This document shows positions 1-6,178 of a stretch of DNA of 6,178 nucleotides, in pieces. Position 1 is the first letter of the stretch. Every line of letters starts with the position of its first letter. Origin of the DNA: Acidobacteriaceae bacterium (GTDB lineage: Bacteria; Acidobacteriota; Terriglobia; Terriglobales; Acidobacteriaceae); contig JAICMT010000099.1 in assembly GCA_025929125.1 (NCBI GenBank), forward strand, positions 1 through 6,178, written 5' to 3'. The notes under the pieces are model-generated. The model was not told the origin of the DNA. It did not search any database and saw only the letters and a program-made list of their open reading frames with translations. The position numbers were made by a program, and so were the translations under genes.

Positions 1-2
1 AT

Positions 3-1775
3 CCGGAGCGGGCGCTGGATCGGCGCAATCTGGTGCTGGATGCCATGGTGGAGAACCATGCCATCACCCGCAGCGACGCGGAGCGCGGCAAGGCCGCCGC
101 CCCGCTTAAGCTGGCGCCGCTGAACGTGGAGGCCAGCGATGCGCCCTATTTTGTTGATCTGGTGAAGGATAACCTGACCAGCCACTTTAGCGATCAGGAG
201 CTGGCAGGGGGAAATTACCACGTTTACAGCACACTCGATCCTGACTTGCAGCGGGGTGCGGCTCAGGCGGTCTCAGAGGGACTGAAGGTAGTGGACGCTA
301 AGCTGTTGAAACTGCGCACCCGCCGCATCAAGATCGGCAAAGGCCGCAAAGCCAAGTACGAAACCCGAGTCCTGCCTGGCCCAGATGCGCAAGTAGCGCT
401 GGTGGCGATAGATCCCCACACCGGCCATATGCTGGCCCTGGTGGGTGGCCGCAATTACGCCTTCAGCCAATTGGACCACGCGGTGGCGAAGCGGCCCACG
501 GGCTCCATTTTCAAGCCCTTTGTTTACGCCGCAGCCATCAACACGGCTCTTAGCGGAGGGGTTCCTCCGGCGAATTTTGCTGCCGCAGCCGCAAACAGTT
601 CCAGCAGCACCGTCCCCACTCCCGCCAATGCCGCTACCCCGGCTAGTGCCACCCCCCAACAACCCGCGAGTGCACCCCCTGAGCCGGCGCCTGTGGCAAC
701 GCCCACGGCTCCCGTGGTAATCACTCCCGTAACGCTGGTCAACGATGAGCCGACCACCTTCAGCTACGGCGACCAGATCTATGAGCCGCGCAATTACAGA
801 GACGAGTATCACGGCCAGGTAACCGCCCGTTACGCTCTGGCACTTTCGCTGAATAATGCCACCGTGGCGCTGGCGCAACTGGTGGGCTATGACAAGGTTG
901 CCGATCTGGCCCGAGCCGCCGGCATTAATTCAGTGAAAGCCACGCCGGCGATGGCTTTGGGCGCTTATGACGCGACCCCGTTGGACATGGCTTCCGCCTA
1001 TACCGTTTTTGCCAACGGCGGAGTGAAGTTGAGCCCTGTGCTGATCAACTCGGTGCGTAATGCGAAGGGCGACGTGCTGGCCAACTATCAGGCGGAGCAG
1101 AAGCCGGTGCTCGATGCCAGGGTGGCCTACATCATGACCAACATGATGGCAGGCGTGCTCAACTACGGAACCGCCTACGGGGTGCGCGCCGCCGGCTTTA
1201 ACGCGCCAGCCGCTGGTAAGACCGGCACTTCCCACGATGCCTGGTTCGCGGGATACACCAGCGACCTGCTCTGCATTGTGTGGGTGGGTTATGACGATTA
1301 CAGCGATATCCGCCTGAGCGGAGCTGAAATTGCCGCCCCGATTTGGACTGACTTCATGAAACGGGCGGTGACCTTGCCCGAGTACCGGGACGTCTCGGAT
1401 TTCGAGCAACCAACCGGCGTGGTAAACGTACAGCTCGATAAGGTAACGAACGCCTTGGCGACCTCCACCTGCCCGAATGATTATGTGGCCGCGTTTATAG
1501 CCGGCACCGAACCCACCGAGACCTGCGATCAGGCCATGGGCGAACACCGCGGGTTCCTGGCTCGCATCTTAGGATTGGGAGGAGCTAAGCCCCTGCCCCC
1601 GCCGCCCCCCGGGCAGCCCCCTAACGCCCAAGCCGGGCAGCAAACGGCCGGAGCCCAGGGACAAGCCGCTGACGCGGACAAAAAGAAAAAAGGTTTGTTC
1701 GGCAAAATTGTGGGTATCTTTAAGGAGGACGACAAGCCAACGGCTCCGTCCCCGCCGCCCAGCCAGCCTCATTAA
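3..1775 (+). CDS. Class A penicillin-binding protein (peptidoglycan transpeptidase part), 5'-truncated by the window edge
   Basis: This is the C-terminal part of a bifunctional peptidoglycan synthase, which polymerises and cross-links murein on the outer face of the inner membrane. The reading frame is open from base 3. The first residues (PERALDRRNLVLDAMVEN) match the segment that ends the glycosyltransferase (GT51) domain, so the true start lies upstream and the GTG at 33 is internal. The linker motif YSTLDPDLQ follows near 225. The transpeptidase motifs are all present: SIFK with the catalytic Ser at 504-515, SLN at 846-854 and KTGT at 1218-1229. Two oddities stand out. About 51 Ala/Pro/Ser/Thr-rich residues (579-731) are inserted between SxxK and SxN. 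The C-terminus ends in a Pro/Gln/Ala-rich tail with a KKKKGLFGKIVGIFK segment (1680-1724). The stop at 1773-1775 lies 44 bp before the TPR gene, which suggests an operon. The family call is secure; the exact paralogue is not. Confidence 0.95.
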   Translation, partial: PERALDRRNLVLDAMVENHAITRSDAERGKAAAPLKLAPLNVEASDAPYFVDLVKDNLTSHFSDQELAGGNYHVYSTLDPDLQRGAAQAVSEGLKVVDAKLLKLRTRRIKIGKGRKAKYETRVLPGPDAQVALVAIDPHTGHMLALVGGRNYAFSQLDHAVAKRPTGSIFKPFVYAAAINTALSGGVPPANFAAAAANSSSSTVPTPANAATPASATPQQPASAPPEPAPVATPTAPVVITPVTLVNDEPTTFSYGDQIYEPRNYRDEYHGQVTARYALALSLNNATVALAQLVGYDKVADLARAAGINSVKATPAMALGAYDATPLDMASAYTVFANGGVKLSPVLINSVRNAKGDVLANYQAEQKPVLDARVAYIMTNMMAGVLNYGTAYGVRAAGFNAPAAGKTGTSHDAWFAGYTSDLLCIVWVGYDDYSDIRLSGAEIAAPIWTDFMKRAVTLPEYRDVSDFEQPTGVVNVQLDKVTNALATSTCPNDYVAAFIAGTEPTETCDQAMGEHRGFLARILGLGGAKPLPPPPPGQPPNAQAGQQTAGAQGQAADADKKKKGLFGKIVGIFKEDDKPTAPSPPPSQPH

Positions 1776-1807
1776 GGCGGCAGCGGCCGGTTGTGGGGAC
1801 CGGTCGC

Positions 1808-1814
1808 AGGAGGT
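1808..1814 (+). promoter_or_regulatory. Shine-Dalgarno sequence of the TPR gene
   Basis: AGGAGGT lies 5 nt before the ATG at 1820. This decides the start of the TPR gene, because an in-frame GTG at 1793 has no such site and would place nine extra residues before the signal peptide. A short hairpin (CCGGT 1787-1791 with ACCGG 1799-1803) ends 4 nt before the site and would leave it exposed. Confidence 0.85.
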
Positions 1815-1819
1815 GCATT

Positions 1820-2647
1820 ATGCCTCGCGTTCGTGGCCGCACGTTGAGCCATTCAGCCTTTCTGTTGCTGGCGCTTGCCTGTGCCGCAGCCTGCCTCACG
1901 CAGCCCAAAGCCTTTGCCCAACTGGAAGTAGCTCCGCCCCTACTCCGGGCGGTGGAGCCTCCTCCCAGGGACTGGACCAGCCAGCAACTGGAGGAGCGCG
2001 CCGACTCGCTGCGCGCCCAGAAGCTCTATCTGGACGCGATTGACTATTACAAGGCCGCGGAAAAAAGCCGCAAGACGCGCAGCGCCGCTCTCTACAACAA
2101 AATCGGTATTACTGAGCTGCAGATGCAGCGCTTCCATGATGCCGACAAGGACTTCCACCGCGCCATCAAAGCGGACAAGAAATATGCCGATGGCTACAAC
2201 AACCTGGGTGTCATCTATTACCTGAACAAGAAGTACGGGAAGGCAGTCAAACAGTATCGCAAGGCGATAAAAATCTACGAGCAGTCCGCCTCCTACCACA
2301 GCAATCTGGCCGCAGCTTACTTCTCGCAGAAAAAATTCGAGACTGCCATGGTGGAGTATGCCCGGGCCCTGCAGCTGGACCCCGAAATTTTTGAGCGCAC
2401 CTCCCAAACCGGGGTGGCGGCGCAGATGTCCTCCCCGGAGGACCGCGCCCATTACGACTACATGGTCGCGAAAATGTATGCCCAGATGGGGATTGCAGAC
2501 CGTTCCCTGCTCTATCTGCGCAAAGCCATGGAGGAGGGTTACAAGGGGATTGATGCCGTTTACAAGGATTCCGAGTTCGCCGGGCTGCGCAAAGACCCCC
2601 GGTTTCTCGAGTTGATGAAGGCCCGGCCCCAGGCTATTCCCAATTAA
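1820..2647 (+). CDS. Secreted tetratricopeptide-repeat protein
   Basis: The predicted protein has 275 residues. It begins with a Sec-type signal peptide: basic residues at 3-7, a hydrophobic core at about 13-26, and a likely cleavage site AFA|Q after residue 33. The Cys residues in the core do not form a good lipobox, so a soluble periplasmic protein is more likely than a lipoprotein. TPR-like helical pairs follow at about 55-83, 88-121, 122-155 and 156-189, with a further pair at about 210-243. Clear TPR signatures include YADGYNNLGVIYYLNKKYGK and YHSNLAAAYFSQKKFETA. The end (SEFAGLRKDPRFLELM) is typical of bacterial TPR proteins. TPRs bind peptides and build scaffolds, so a role in organising the peptidoglycan synthase encoded just upstream is plausible but is inference from co-orientation and the 44-bp spacing. 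No enzymatic motif is visible and no specific family name can be given. Confidence 0.9.
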   Translation: MPRVRGRTLSHSAFLLLALACAAACLTQPKAFAQLEVAPPLLRAVEPPPRDWTSQQLEERADSLRAQKLYLDAIDYYKAAEKSRKTRSAALYNKIGITELQMQRFHDADKDFHRAIKADKKYADGYNNLGVIYYLNKKYGKAVKQYRKAIKIYEQSASYHSNLAAAYFSQKKFETAMVEYARALQLDPEIFERTSQTGVAAQMSSPEDRAHYDYMVAKMYAQMGIADRSLLYLRKAMEEGYKGIDAVYKDSEFAGLRKDPRFLELMKARPQAIPN

Positions 2648-2755
2648 GCCGGAGCCAAAAAAAATTTAGCCGCCGGCGAAACTTTTCGCTTCCAAAAGGG
2701 TATAAGTGATTAAAGCCTCCTGAAAGCAACAGGGTGAGTAAGGAGAAACGGTAAA

Positions 2756-2813
2756 CCCACTGGCTGCACACCCGAGCACGCCCCAAGCACGCAGCCAGTG
2801 GGCGTTTTTGTTT
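2756..2813 (+). terminator. Rho-independent terminator after the PBP-TPR operon
   Basis: A perfect 12-bp inverted repeat, CCCACTGGCTGC (2756-2767) and GCAGCCAGTGGG (2791-2802), encloses a 23-nt loop. It is followed by CGTTTTTGTTT. The T-run lies on the plus side, so it terminates rightward transcription. It is 108 bp after the TPR stop codon, farther than usual, and the loop is large. It may therefore belong to a separate short transcript rather than only to the operon. Confidence 0.8.
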
Positions 2814-2814
2814 G

Positions 2815-2890
2815 TAGCTGACTAGCTGACTAGCTGAATGGCTAACTAGCTGATTTGCTTCAAGCTAGACGGCTAGTGAGCCAGTCAGCT
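2815..2890. repeat. Degenerate 8-bp tandem repeat (consensus TAGCTGAC)
   Basis: From 2815 the sequence reads in octamers: TAGCTGAC, TAGCTGAC, TAGCTGAA, TGGCTAAC, TAGCTGAT (to 2854). It then continues in decayed form to about 2886. CTAG, rare in many bacterial genomes, occurs five times in about 55 bp. The array is also partly self-complementary. Bases 2816-2834 pair with 2872-2890 at 17 of 19 positions, and CTAGCT (2846-2851) pairs with AGCTAG (2863-2868) inside. The outer stem is followed by TTTT, so it could add to termination. The unit length is not a multiple of three and no ORF is supported here. Confidence 0.8.
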
Positions 2891-2901
2891 TTTTCCCAAT
2901 C

Positions 2902-2941
2902 ACTTAGCCAGGCTGTATTTTTCATTTACTTAGCTGGGCTG
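2902..2941. repeat. 14-bp direct repeat reaching into the kdsC 3' end
   Basis: ACTTAGCCAGGCTG (2902-2915) and ACTTAGCTGGGCTG (2928-2941) match at 12 of 14 positions, 26 bp apart. Both contain TTAGC-type motifs related to the neighbouring octamer array. The second copy encodes the last codons of kdsC, so the end of the protein (SPAK) may derive from repeat sequence. Confidence 0.6.
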
Positions 2942-3543
2942 CGCTCGCGTGTGTACTCGCGTACCACCTCTTCCCATTTGCCCTGCGCTTTCAGGATGTA
3001 CTCCAGCGCGTCGCGCAAGGCCCCCTGTCCTCCATGGTGTTCCGTGACATAGTGGGCTTCCTCCTTGACCTCGGCGCGAGCATTAGCCACAGCCACGGCC
3101 AATCCACAGTTGCGCATGACCGGCAGGTCAATGACGTCATCGCCCACGTAGGCGGCCTGCTCCGGACGTAAGCCTGCCTTGGCCAGGATCTCTTCAAAGA
3201 CCGTCAGCTTGTCCTGGATGCCTTGATAGACGTATTCCAGCTTCAGATCGCGGGCGCGCAGGGCCACCGTCTCCGAGATGCGTTTGGTGATGAGGCCGGT
3301 CTTGATGCCGGCCAGGCGGGCCAGCGAGATGGCGGTGCCGTCGTGGGCGTGGAAGCCCTTGGCCTCCACCATGTTCTGGCTGACAATGCCGAAACCGCCT
3401 TCGCCGCCGTGCTGGCGCGCGTGCTGCTGGGTGGAAAGCTGCGCTCCCGCGGGAGCGGGAAAGAACCAGAGAGTGCCGTCGGTCAGCACCCCATCCACAT
3501 CGAACAGCAGCAGCTTGATTTTGCGGGCGCGTTCCAGGGACAT
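2926..3543 (-). CDS. kdsC: 3-deoxy-D-manno-octulosonate 8-phosphate phosphatase (KdsC-type HAD phosphatase)
   Basis: KdsC hydrolyses KDO-8-phosphate to KDO and phosphate in the cytoplasm, supplying KDO for the lipopolysaccharide inner core. The 205-residue product shows the HAD motifs in order: motif I FDVDGVLTDG (nucleophile Asp15, Asp17), motif II GLITKR (Thr86), a QGIQDK segment with probable catalytic Lys112, and motif III YVGDDVIDLPVM (Asp135, Asp136). The end, GLAVAVANARAEVK followed by LKAQGKWEEV, is characteristic of KdsC. Known homologues are about 180-190 residues; the extra length is mainly a roughly 25-residue insert at about residues 29-60, where KdsC normally has a short turn. 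The start at 3543 was chosen because motif I normally lies 10-15 residues from the N-terminus. An upstream in-frame ATG at 3648 would add 35 unrelated residues. No Shine-Dalgarno sequence precedes either start. HAD specificity cannot be proved from sequence, but the match is good. Confidence 0.9.
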   Translation of the reverse strand: MSLERARKIKLLLFDVDGVLTDGTLWFFPAPAGAQLSTQQHARQHGGEGGFGIVSQNMVEAKGFHAHDGTAISLARLAGIKTGLITKRISETVALRARDLKLEYVYQGIQDKLTVFEEILAKAGLRPEQAAYVGDDVIDLPVMRNCGLAVAVANARAEVKEEAHYVTEHHGGQGALRDALEYILKAQGKWEEVVREYTRERSPAK

Positions 3544-3550
3544 ACCGGGA

Positions 3551-3559
3551 ATGATAGCA
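3551..3559 (-). promoter_or_regulatory. Possible extended -10 promoter for a leaderless kdsC transcript
   Basis: On the minus strand TGCTATCAT (an extended -10 form, TGn-TATCAT) ends 7 nt before the A of the kdsC ATG, so transcription would start at or next to the start codon. This agrees with the absence of a Shine-Dalgarno sequence. The -35 is poor (TTGTTA at 3577-3582, 20-bp spacer). A rival promoter is TTGGTG (3639-3644) with TATCAC (3616-3621) and a 17-bp spacer. Neither is certain. Confidence 0.25.
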
Positions 3560-3698
3560 AAGGGGCCCTTGGCCTTTAACAACTGGCTGTTGCACAGTAG
3601 CGTCGGTGAATGAAAGTGATATTGATATGACGACTTCACACCAATCATCGCCGCTCACCGATTCGTCTGCTCATCTGGGCGCAGAACACTGACATCTA

Positions 3699-4607
3699 TC
3701 AGAACACGTCTAGATCATGGCCGATGACGACCCGTCCATGATAGGTCCGCTGGATCTGTCGCAGTATCTCCTGGAGTCCCGATTCGTTTGCGGCGTTGTG
3801 GTAAACGATCAGCAGACCTGGCTTGGTGCGGTTGGCAATGTCGGCGAGTTGATCCGTGGTCGTGTGATAACGGGCGCGGTAAGCCGGCCAATCGGGTATG
3901 GTCTCCACGTTGTATGTCGTCGACTGCACCTCGTGAATAAGAACATCACAGGGTTGGCAATTGGCGATCAGTTCCTTGCTGGGACTGGTGTCGCCGGAGA
4001 TAACGATGATGCGGTCGGGTGTTTCAAAACGATACCCGAATGCCTGCGGCCACTCTCCGTGTGCAACGGGAAAGGCCTTCACGGTCACGCGGTCGTCTTG
4101 GTACACAACGCCTGGCTTTACATCATGAGCGTGGACGACGAGCGGAGGCGCGTGCTCCATCCCCTGGCTACGGTTCTCGATGTCGCGGCGATAAGCCTCC
4201 CGGAGATGTTTGGTCATATCCTCGGTCCCGTCGGGACCGTACACGTCCAATTTAGTTCGGCCAAATATCCACGGAGTGAGCATCAAGTCTGGATAACCTG
4301 CGGTGTGATCGGAATGCAGGTGCGTGAGGAACGCGACTTTGATTTTTGTCGGCTCAACCGCCGGATATCCCTTTGCTGCAGCTGCTGCCGCGCGTCGAAC
4401 AACTCCCGGACCGAAATCGATCAGGTAGGCACGGTCGCCGACAACGATCGCCGTCGCCGGTCCTGAACGATCCGGATTCGGCCGGGGCGTGCCGGTACCT
4501 AACATGATGATCTTCGTGGATAACCGATCGGCGGCGGTCAAACCGACTGGAGCACCGATGACCGGGAGAGCGAGAGCGAGAGCAAACAGACAGTGATGAA
4601 CTCGCAT
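3699..4607 (-). CDS. Exported metallo-beta-lactamase-fold hydrolase, RNase Z/arylsulfatase-like
   Basis: The product has 302 residues. It opens with a signal peptide (hydrophobic core about 7-23, cleavage probably near GLTA|A at 24-26), so it should act in the periplasm or outside the cell. The MBL fold is clear: a first strand with LGTGTPRP (36-43), LIDFGPG (62-68), the metal motif HLHSDH (96-101), His183 in FPVAHGEWPQAFGYR, Asp206 in ISGDTSPS, His270 in VYHNA and the closing GHDLDVF. This order and the AFGYR segment resemble RNase Z and the AtsA-type arylsulfatases. A secreted location argues against tRNA processing and for a small-molecule ester substrate, but the substrate is unknown. The ATG at 4607 was chosen because GAGGA (4616-4620) lies 8 nt upstream and the -10 box lies just before it. 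An ATG at 4622 and a TTG at 4637 are less suitable. The gene lies 155 bp upstream of kdsC on the same strand, with no evident functional link. Confidence 0.88.
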   Translation of the reverse strand: MRVHHCLFALALALPVIGAPVGLTAADRLSTKIIMLGTGTPRPNPDRSGPATAIVVGDRAYLIDFGPGVVRRAAAAAAKGYPAVEPTKIKVAFLTHLHSDHTAGYPDLMLTPWIFGRTKLDVYGPDGTEDMTKHLREAYRRDIENRSQGMEHAPPLVVHAHDVKPGVVYQDDRVTVKAFPVAHGEWPQAFGYRFETPDRIIVISGDTSPSKELIANCQPCDVLIHEVQSTTYNVETIPDWPAYRARYHTTTDQLADIANRTKPGLLIVYHNAANESGLQEILRQIQRTYHGRVVIGHDLDVF

Positions 4608-4615
4608 AGGCCAGA

Positions 4616-4642
4616 TCCTCATCGAAGTGGCCGCCAATTATA
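4616..4642 (-). promoter_or_regulatory. Promoter -10 box and Shine-Dalgarno of the MBL hydrolase gene
   Basis: On the minus strand a perfect TATAAT (4642 to 4637) would start a transcript near 4630, giving a leader of about 23 nt. The leader contains GAGGA (4620 to 4616), 8 nt before the ATG at 4607. The -35 region at the proper spacing reads ACACCG and is poor, so an activator or a different sigma factor may be involved. The insertion sequence begins only about 52 bp upstream of this box. Confidence 0.5.
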
Positions 4643-4699
4643 GAGCCGCTGGGGGCAGCCGGTGTTGAGCAGAGCGGGCGATTGGCGCTAACAGATGGG

Positions 4700-4714
4700 A
4701 TGAGAAGGCCGGTC
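4700..4714 (+). repeat. Left subterminal inverted repeat of the IS (IRL)
   Basis: ATGAGAAGGCCGGTC is the exact reverse complement of the 15 bases at 6157-6171. The match stops at both sides. It marks the left end of the element together with a few extra outer bases. Confidence 0.9.
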
Positions 4715-4784
4715 TCCCGACGGGATGCTGTACGCTCCCAAGTTATCGACGTGCTCGCAAGCACAAGAGATAAAGGAGACCGGC
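4708..4784 (+). promoter_or_regulatory. Transposase leader: Shine-Dalgarno sequestered by a long-range hairpin
   Basis: GCCGGTCTCC (4708-4717), overlapping IRL, is perfectly complementary to GGAGACCGGC (4775-4784). The latter contains the core of the transposase Shine-Dalgarno AAAGGAG (4772-4778), which is 7 nt before the ATG at 4786. In RNA this 10-bp stem would close over a 57-nt loop that has its own hairpin (GTGCT 4751-4755 with AGCAC 4760-4764) and would hide the ribosome site. A role in limiting transposase translation from read-through transcripts is inference from other insertion sequences that use this strategy. Confidence 0.6.
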
Positions 4785-4785
4785 A

Positions 4786-5889
4786 ATGAAGAAGGTTAGC
4801 ACCGTGGCGGCAATTGAGAGCAGCGATTTTTCTCGACCGAAGCTGACGATCGGTTTGGACCTGGGCGATCGTTCCAGTTGGTACTGCGTGCTGGATGAAC
4901 GAGGCGAGCTGCAAGGGGAGCGGAAGGTGAGCACCACCGCGAAGGCCATGCGCGAGGCGTTCCACCGAATACCGCGCAGCCGCATCGCGCTGGAGACGGG
5001 GACGCATTCCCCCTGGGTGAGTCGGCTGCTGAGCGGGCTGGGCCACGAGGTAATCGTGGCGCACGCGCGCAAGGTGCGGCTGATCGGGGAGAGCCGGCGC
5101 AAGGACGACCGTCTGGACGCACGCACTTTGGCGCGGCTGGCGAGGATCGACCCGCAGTTGCTGTCGCCGGTGAAGCACCGCAGCGCCCAAGCGCAGGCGG
5201 ACCTGACCCTGATCCGGGCGCGAGCGGGACTGGTGCGGGCCCGAACGGCGCTGGTCAACACGGTGCGCAGCCTGGCCAAGTCCTACGGGGAGCGCCTGCG
5301 CAGCTGCAACGTGCGCAACATGGATCCCGAAAAAGCCGAAGGGCTGAGTCCCGAACTGCAGGCCGCGCTGGAGCCACTGCTGAGGACCATCGAGTCGCTG
5401 AGTGCAGGCATCCGCGAGTACAACCAGCGGATCGAAGCGCTGGCCCAACGGAGCTATCCCGAGGTGGCGCTGCTCAAACAGGTCAAGGGCGTGGGCACGC
5501 TGATCGCACTGACCTTTTTGCTGACCCTGGAAGACCCGCATCGCTTCCGCAAGAGCCGAGACGTGGGCTGCTACCTGGGACTGCAGCCAGGGCGAAGAAA
5601 CTCCGGGCAGAGCGAGCCGCAAATGCACATCAGCAAGGAAGGCGACCCCTATCTGCGAACCCTGCTGGTGCAGGGGGCGCAGCACATTCTGGGGCCATTC
5701 GGCACCGACTGCGACCTGCGGCGCTGGGGCCTGAAGCTGGCCGAGCGCGGCGGCAAGAATGGCAAGAAGCGGGCCATCATCGCTACGGCACGCAAGCTGG
5801 CCGTGTTGCTGCATCGGCTGTGGGTTACCGGGGAATCCTACGAACCGCTGCATAACAGCAGATGCCGGGCAGTGCCCGCAGTGGCGTAA
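4786..5889 (+). CDS. IS110-family DEDD transposase
   Basis: The 367-residue protein catalyses RNA-guided recombination of the insertion sequence through a circular intermediate. The N-terminal RuvC-like (DEDD_Tnp_IS110) domain has Asp25 in IGLDLG, Glu70 in IALETGTHS, and Asp108 and Asp111 in KDDRLDARTLARL. A middle helical region covers about 125-225 (coiled-coil-like). The C-terminal Transposase_20 domain begins near LLKQVKGVGTLIA (229-241) and carries the conserved YLGLQPGRRNSGQSE segment; Ser273 is the likely nucleophile, with Ser276 the alternative. ISKEGDPYLRTLL follows as in the family. The length is in the usual 300-400 range and no stop or frameshift is seen, so the gene is probably functional. 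The start is supported by AAAGGAG 7 nt upstream. Base composition resembles the neighbouring genes, so it gives no sign of a recent foreign origin. Confidence 0.95.
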   Translation: MKKVSTVAAIESSDFSRPKLTIGLDLGDRSSWYCVLDERGELQGERKVSTTAKAMREAFHRIPRSRIALETGTHSPWVSRLLSGLGHEVIVAHARKVRLIGESRRKDDRLDARTLARLARIDPQLLSPVKHRSAQAQADLTLIRARAGLVRARTALVNTVRSLAKSYGERLRSCNVRNMDPEKAEGLSPELQAALEPLLRTIESLSAGIREYNQRIEALAQRSYPEVALLKQVKGVGTLIALTFLLTLEDPHRFRKSRDVGCYLGLQPGRRNSGQSEPQMHISKEGDPYLRTLLVQGAQHILGPFGTDCDLRRWGLKLAERGGKNGKKRAIIATARKLAVLLHRLWVTGESYEPLHNSRCRAVPAVA

Positions 5890-5896
5890 ACCAAAA

Positions 5897-5909
5897 CCTT
5901 CCGGGAAGG
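5897..5909 (-). terminator. Short hairpin after the transposase stop, terminator-like on the minus strand
   Basis: CCTTCCGGGAAGG forms a tight 5-bp stem 8 nt after the transposase stop codon. On the plus strand it is followed by AAAAAG; on the minus strand by TTTTGGTTT. It would therefore better stop transcription entering the transposase gene in the antisense direction. On the plus strand it may instead be the 5' boundary of the guide RNA. The stem is short, so confidence is low. Confidence 0.3.
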
Positions 5910-6148
5910 AAAAAGCAAAGCTCACATGCCGGGTTCCGGTGACTGCGTCGAACGCCTGGCCCAACTTTCATTCTCAGGAATGGAAGAGAGGTCGACTAAC
6001 AGGTGGCAGCACCGGCTGCAACGAGAACGCCCAACTTGCACCGAGCGAACAATCTCGCTCACCCAGAGTGCGGATGGAAGGATGGCGACAGTGGCGACCC
6101 GGACGGAAAGAAAACCTTGCCCATGAAAAGAAAAACCAAAGAACCGAC

Positions 6149-6154
6149 TTGACT
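6149..6154 (+). promoter_or_regulatory. Outward -35 box at the IS right end (possible junction promoter half)
   Basis: TTGACT (5 of 6 to TTGACA) ends 17 bp before the outer edge of IRR, facing outward. In the circularised element a -10 would be supplied from the joined ends. With the boundary used here GAAGAT would lie at an 18-bp spacer, a weak match. Junction promoters of this kind are known in IS110-family circles. In the integrated form the box could also activate a downstream gene. Confidence 0.45.
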
Positions 6155-6156
6155 CC

Positions 6157-6171
6157 GACCGGCCTTCTCAT
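6157..6171 (-). repeat. Right subterminal inverted repeat of the IS (IRR)
   Basis: GACCGGCCTTCTCAT is the perfect 15-bp inverted partner of 4700-4714. Outside it come GGAAGGC and the end of the window, so only a few outer element bases and almost no flank can be read. Confidence 0.9.
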
Positions 6172-6178
6172 GGAAGGC

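Follow-up and report, generated by a model that had tools for sequence, protein, structure and literature searches.

The window, by which we mean the whole 6,178-nucleotide stretch of DNA analyzed here, is a contig from an Acidobacteriaceae bacterium, and an insertion sequence sits at its right end (Table 1). The transposase encoded by the element is assigned to the IS110 family by Pfam and NCBIfam matches above their cut-offs, and its C-terminal part contains, from residue 265, GLQPGRRNSG, a form of the GL-P----S(T)G motif that is described as a mark of the IS1111 group (Siddiquee et al. 2024, PMC11187229). Its nearest relatives of solved structure, the transposases of IS621 (E = 1.4e-06) and ISCro4 (E = 2.6e-06), are related to it in sequence but distant. 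Downstream of the transposase gene lies a long non-coding region (5890-6156) that is conserved in relatives, as is characteristic of the IS1111 group. The subterminal inverted repeats are perfect over 15 bp, while those of the IS1111 group are usually 11-13 bp long, and the extensions outside such repeats are, as a rule, 7 bp on the left and 3 bp on the right (PMC11187229). In the window these extensions are AGATGGG and GGA, in agreement with the rule, when the AG dinucleotide present at both borders (4693-4694 and 6175-6176) is counted on the left. The limits proposed in a first-pass annotation of this DNA, 4695-6176, describe an equivalent span because the AG is shared, and we adopt 4693-6174, which fits the 7-bp/3-bp rule. 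The absence of target duplication, another property of the group, was seen not at the window copy but at a relative, L036: three orthologous loci without the element (L251, L252, and L255) read AG|GCGTTTAC, align across the L036 junction into the downstream gene, and join the two flanks at a single AG. An Rfam search with E-values up to 1 returned three weak matches, all outside the element and none at the gathering score. The element is thus very probably, judging from these features and from the comparisons below, an IS1111-group insertion sequence of the IS110 family with a predicted bridge RNA or seekRNA in its right-end non-coding region.

Table 1 Features of the insertion sequence and its predicted RNA in the window
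Feature	Position	Strand	Basis or remark
Left half of target site, CTAACAG	4688..4694	+	Core AG at 4693-4694; left flanks track left target guide, 27 copies
Whole element, IS1111 convention	4693..6174	+	Boundary alignment of relatives; orthologous loci without the element for L036
Left subterminal inverted repeat, ATGAGAAGGCCGGTC	4700..4714	+	Sequence
IS110-family DEDD transposase, 367 aa	4786..5889	+	Pfam DEDD_Tnp_IS110 and Transposase_20; NF033542, 224.8 bits (cut-off 140)
Predicted target-binding loop	5937..6014	+	Closing stem 5937-5946/6006-6014; each pair in at least 42 of 43 sequences
Right target guide, CGAACGCCT	5949..5957	+	Covariation with right flank, 35 other copies
Stem-loop between target guides	5959..5993	+	Holds ATGGAAG 5980-5986, mostly as 3' arm
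Left target guide, CTAACAG	5996..6002	+	Covariation with left flank, 27 copies including the window
Candidate right donor guide, CCCAACT	6030..6036	+	Complementary at 6 of 7 positions to left-end AGATGGG
Stem-loop between donor guides	6038..6071	+	Consensus fold; 42-43 of 43 sequences form the nearly invariant pairs
Left donor guide, GGATGGAAG	6072..6080	+	ATGGAAG 6074-6080 equals right end; varies together with right end
Right subterminal inverted repeat, GACCGGCCTTCTCAT	6157..6171	+	Sequence
Core AG and GC (first two bases of right flank)	6175..6178	+	Contig end

The first-pass annotation had pointed out that CTAACAGGTGG (5996-6006) is identical at 10 of 11 positions to CTAACAGATGG (4688-4698), which spans the left border of the element, and this match is correct. 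Markov resampling of the non-coding region, however, gave an 11-mer matching the left boundary at 10 of 11 positions in 14 of 500 cases; the strings of the window alone therefore prove little, and relatives were collected for this reason. A total of 62 element copies, the window included, were parsed, from which 35 copies besides the window were counted for the right guide and 27, including the window, for the left guide; parsed copies were left out of these counts when too little flank remained in the contig or when they misfit the guide pattern used. The RNA stretch was obtained from 50 of the 62 copies, and exclusion of 7 divergent ones yielded the 43-row alignment used for folding; 34 (right) and 23 (left) of the counted copies are present in this alignment and entered the Mantel tests. 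The first parsed copy of L011 is degenerate. The nearest relative, L014/L052, is split on one contig into halves of opposite orientation, reflecting either an inversion or a misassembly, and its right half alone was used.

In the consensus fold of the 43 sequences, the right guide, a stem, and the left guide are followed by the candidate right donor guide, the stem at 6038-6071, and the left donor guide, and the two target guides occupy opposite sides of a conserved internal loop. Bridge RNAs are arranged in this way. An open donor loop is something we infer rather than read from the fold, because the consensus structure pairs some donor-guide bases with each other (6031-6033/6075-6077).

CTAACAG is taken as the left target guide because these seven letters of the RNA, which end in the AG core, follow the flank of each copy. 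Identity between the guide and its own flank extends over all seven positions in 9 of the 27 copies and over at least six in 21. At positions -4 to -7, a mean of 3.11 of 4 letters agree, compared with 1.87 when the flanks are shuffled, and none of 20,000 shuffles performed as well. Sliding the register by a single base lowers the matched share from 0.82 to 0.26-0.36, and no signal was detected beyond position -7 when -8 to -12 were tested in the 27 copies. The association persists when the relatedness of the remaining RNA is allowed for (partial Mantel r = 0.46, n = 23, 0 of 5000 permutations). The expectation of the first-pass annotation that the flanks of other copies should match their own equivalents of this segment was thus borne out, and its target guide, placed at 5996-6003, stands for 5996-6002 but not for an extension over 6003-6006: the GTGG found there lies outside the guide, and visual inspection of the relatives listed showed that it does not vary with their left ends.

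A right target guide, absent from the first-pass annotation, stands ~40 bases upstream of the left one and pairs with the top strand over the core AG plus 7 nt of the right flank. Over its positions 4-10, the 35 guide-flank pairs, which represent 30 distinct combinations (16 distinct six-base guide strings versus 21 distinct flank strings), form a mean of 5.00 of 7 Watson-Crick pairs, against 3.56 after shuffling, a value attained in none of 20,000 shuffles. When G-U pairs are allowed, contiguous pairing reaches at least 7 nt in 24 of the 35 and at least 9 nt in 15; the runs are shorter than 7 nt in 11 relatives, and just 3 nt long in L146, L074, and L061. A slide of one base reduces the paired share from 0.82 to 0.23, and the partial Mantel correlation, again allowing for relatedness of the remaining RNA, is 0.50 (n = 34, 0 of 5000). 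Among copies outside this count, which were inspected by eye, L063, L026, and L049 fit the pattern, L023 fits partially, and L022, L013, and L072 misfit the right flank assigned to them. The right ends of L072 and L013 are uncertain because of this misfit. In both elements, the stretch from the RNA to the presumed right end holds a possible passenger gene, namely a calcineurin-like phosphoesterase at 3756-4547 in L072 and, on the reverse strand at 2640-3386 in L013, an ORF that by eye is of glyoxalase type.

Many close relatives have an interspersed palindromic repeat as their target and sit in one of its arms, and an exact 15-base target pattern was found in 8 of 12 genomes searched, with 58 matches in G069, some of which are right borders of inserted copies and not free sites; the reversed control pattern gave 0 matches in all. 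The pattern was found neither in the genome of the window (G000) nor in G004, a second genome that shares its locus. In genome G128, whose element has 52% transposase identity to that of the window, all seven copies lie in GCTT(C/T)AG|CCGCTGAGG, and their guides are GCTTCAG and CTCAGCGGCT. The 16-base site occurs uninterrupted 135 times in this genome, 22 times with C and 113 times with T, and six of the seven insertions are in the C form, which matches the guide (Fisher p = 0.0002, the sites in paired repeats not being fully independent). In G069 (L209 and L210) and G049 (L213), the palindromic repeats have the arms TAACTGTTG..AACAG/GCGATTACACTCA and TGAGTGTAATGGC..CAACAGTTA, and they are often clustered. 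L202/L206 (G082:C34) is a target repeat with a short GGCCTTCTCATGGAAGGCC that resembles a bare right-end remnant. The possibility that the target repeats are integron attC sites was considered and rejected, as TIGR02249 exceeded its cut-off in none of eight genomes, the window's own being excluded, and gave weaker matches in three.

Two variable strings of the RNA change in step with both flanks in dozens of copies, and base pairing by the RNA is therefore the likely means of choosing the insertion site. The guide-like matches would need another origin if the transposase protein alone picked the target; they might then reflect the shared ancestry of the elements and of the repeats in which they reside, and the residence of many relatives in one palindromic repeat family does make their flanks alike. 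The variable bases nevertheless track the guides even after relatedness is allowed for, and at transposase identities of 50-52% the guides and flanks differ from those of the window and yet match each other (G128 and, by eye, the right side of L063). The preference of the G128 copies for the repeat form that matches their guide is also difficult to attribute to the protein, and we regard selection by the protein alone as very improbable. Still more improbable is that the matches arose by chance, helped by the several boundary choices considered. Chance does suffice for the 10-of-11 match in the window, as the resampled regions indicate, but it produced no equal result in the 20,000 shuffles of either guide test.

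Base pairing of the RNA with the target, which we prefer, leaves the position of the donor guide to be settled. The first-pass annotation placed it at 5980-5986, beside the target guide in one loop, on the grounds that ATGGAAG there is identical to the right end at 6170-6176, which is true, and that ATGGAAGA matches the predicted circle junction. The latter string occurs once, at 5980, and any given 7-mer such as ATGGAAG is expected 0.02 times in the non-coding region from its composition. This segment, however, forms the 3' side of a hairpin within the target loop, and the pairs of this hairpin show compensatory changes: 5971/5979 (formed in 39 of 43 sequences) and 5972/5978 (35 of 43) vary among U-A, C-G, and U-G. 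Nor is it constant, as had been predicted, for ATGGAAG appears inside the target loop in just 7 of 43 elements even though nearly all right ends read ATGGAAG or ATAGAAG. A second ATGGAAG, overlooked earlier, lies at 6074-6080, and it is both conserved and covarying. The string is kept 3' of the target loop in 42 of the 43 elements, and the exception, L051, has ATAGAAG in the RNA and in the right end alike; outside the 43, ATAGAAG is likewise present on both sides in L016, L026, and L075, and in L020 and the remaining G128 copies. Because of this conservation and of the A-form variants matched in the right ends, the left donor guide is assigned to 6072-6080, and a donor guide at 5980-5986 seems scarcely credible. 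All right ends found read ATGGAAG or ATAGAAG except those of the first L011 copy (ATGGAAAG) and of L163, which is probably a false match. The right donor guide likely lies near 6030-6036, although the support for this position is weak: in the 27 copies with both parts, one of four left ends reading ATGAG is accompanied by a compensating CTCAAC, and the L022 segment equivalent to 6030-6036 lacks complementarity to its left end.

At the window copy itself, the left pairing of 7 nt is seen, and the contig stops 2 bases past the element. Its left flank was found in only two of 398 genomes, G000 and G004, both with the element, and thus provided no empty site. The G004 flank is identical to that of the window over 3865 bp without a mismatch. 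In G004, two left borders and two right borders belong to elements that agree with the window at every base of their available ends (129-141 bases), and one further left end is 92% identical. The left and right borders cannot be linked to each other in this genome, and the point at which their right flanks part is exactly the end of the window contig, so that both are candidate right flanks of the window copy. The interior of these border-sharing copies was not found in G004, where the search gave one partial, diverged copy, and the synteny of the neighboring hydrolase gene, examined in 250 genomes as a means of linking the flanks, yielded best relatives of ~55% identity besides G000 and G004. 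By eye, the right guide of the window pairs with the G004 right flanks AGGCGATATC and AGGCTTTATC over 5 and 4 contiguous nt, respectively, and the left guide agrees with the second G004 left flank, TAAACAG, at 5 of 7 positions. The right guide predicts that the right flank of the window would be AG|GCGTTCG, and GCGATATC would represent a partial (5-nt) match. Window positions 1-4694 and G004:C20 (L140) are identical over the 3865 bases compared although G000 and G004 are assigned to separate genera, and one of the two genome bins therefore probably holds a misplaced contig.

A likely reaction scheme is as follows. The element would excise as a circle in which its ends are abutted, and transcription of the RNA would start from the right end, probably once the circle has formed; TTGAC, which precedes the right repeat in all listed right ends except that of L048, may be a putative promoter element. 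The transposase would bind the RNA, one loop of which would read both strands of the target while the other would read the joined ends of the element, and the strands might then be exchanged at the AG core common to target and donor. The view of the first-pass annotation, that guides sharing an AG core follow the logic of bridge RNAs, is supported by these data.

RNA guidance of this kind is already known, having been described in 2024 under the names bridge RNA and seekRNA, and here a likely case is found in soil Acidobacteria. The IS1111 elements ISEc11, ISPa11, and ISKpn4 carry seekRNAs, and the window element resembles the elements described in that report in its downstream non-coding region, subterminal repeats, 7-bp/3-bp extensions, and GL-P----SG motif, as well as in the order of the matches in the RNA, where the top-strand match precedes the bottom-strand match (PMC11187229). 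ISPa11 also targets palindromic (REP) repeats (PMC11187229), as do relatives in this study. The window element differs from these three, as they are described there, in its guides, targets, and Acidobacteriota hosts, and also in being known from its sequence alone. The predicted target and donor loops, in each of which a left guide and a right guide (a candidate in the donor loop) have a core dinucleotide in common, are shared with the bridge RNA of IS621 (Durrant et al. 2024, PMC11208160), but the core is CT in IS621 and AG in the window element (PMC11208160). In the IS110 group, the RNA resides mostly in the left end, unlike the right-end RNA of the window, and the order of target matches is reversed relative to the window, as reported for ISEc21 (PMC11187229). 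A literature search, the coverage of which did not extend to most subscription journals and preprints, found no report of these Acidobacteriota elements or of doubled target loops. The present findings add a family of predicted RNA-guided elements from Acidobacteriota, most of them uncultured, and natural re-addressing of the guides seems to have occurred many times. The relatives constitute a natural dataset on which guide positions matter, namely seven left-hand and about nine right-hand positions, each set including the AG core, and mismatch tolerance could be read from nature in G128, with its 135 free and 7 occupied sites. The corrected position of the donor guide would matter to anyone aiming to use such an element.

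Two relatives possess two tandem target-binding loops with a single donor loop, L026 on the reverse strand (loops 2023 and 2255, 232 nt apart) and L049 (loops 3638 and 3815, 177 nt apart). Within each element, the two loops carry different right guides, and by eye the donor-proximal loop fits the present right flank (with one G-U pair in L026 and at 9 of 10 positions in L049). It is conceivable, though on balance doubtful, that these tandem loops form a natural two-address bridge RNA or store a spare address for target switching.
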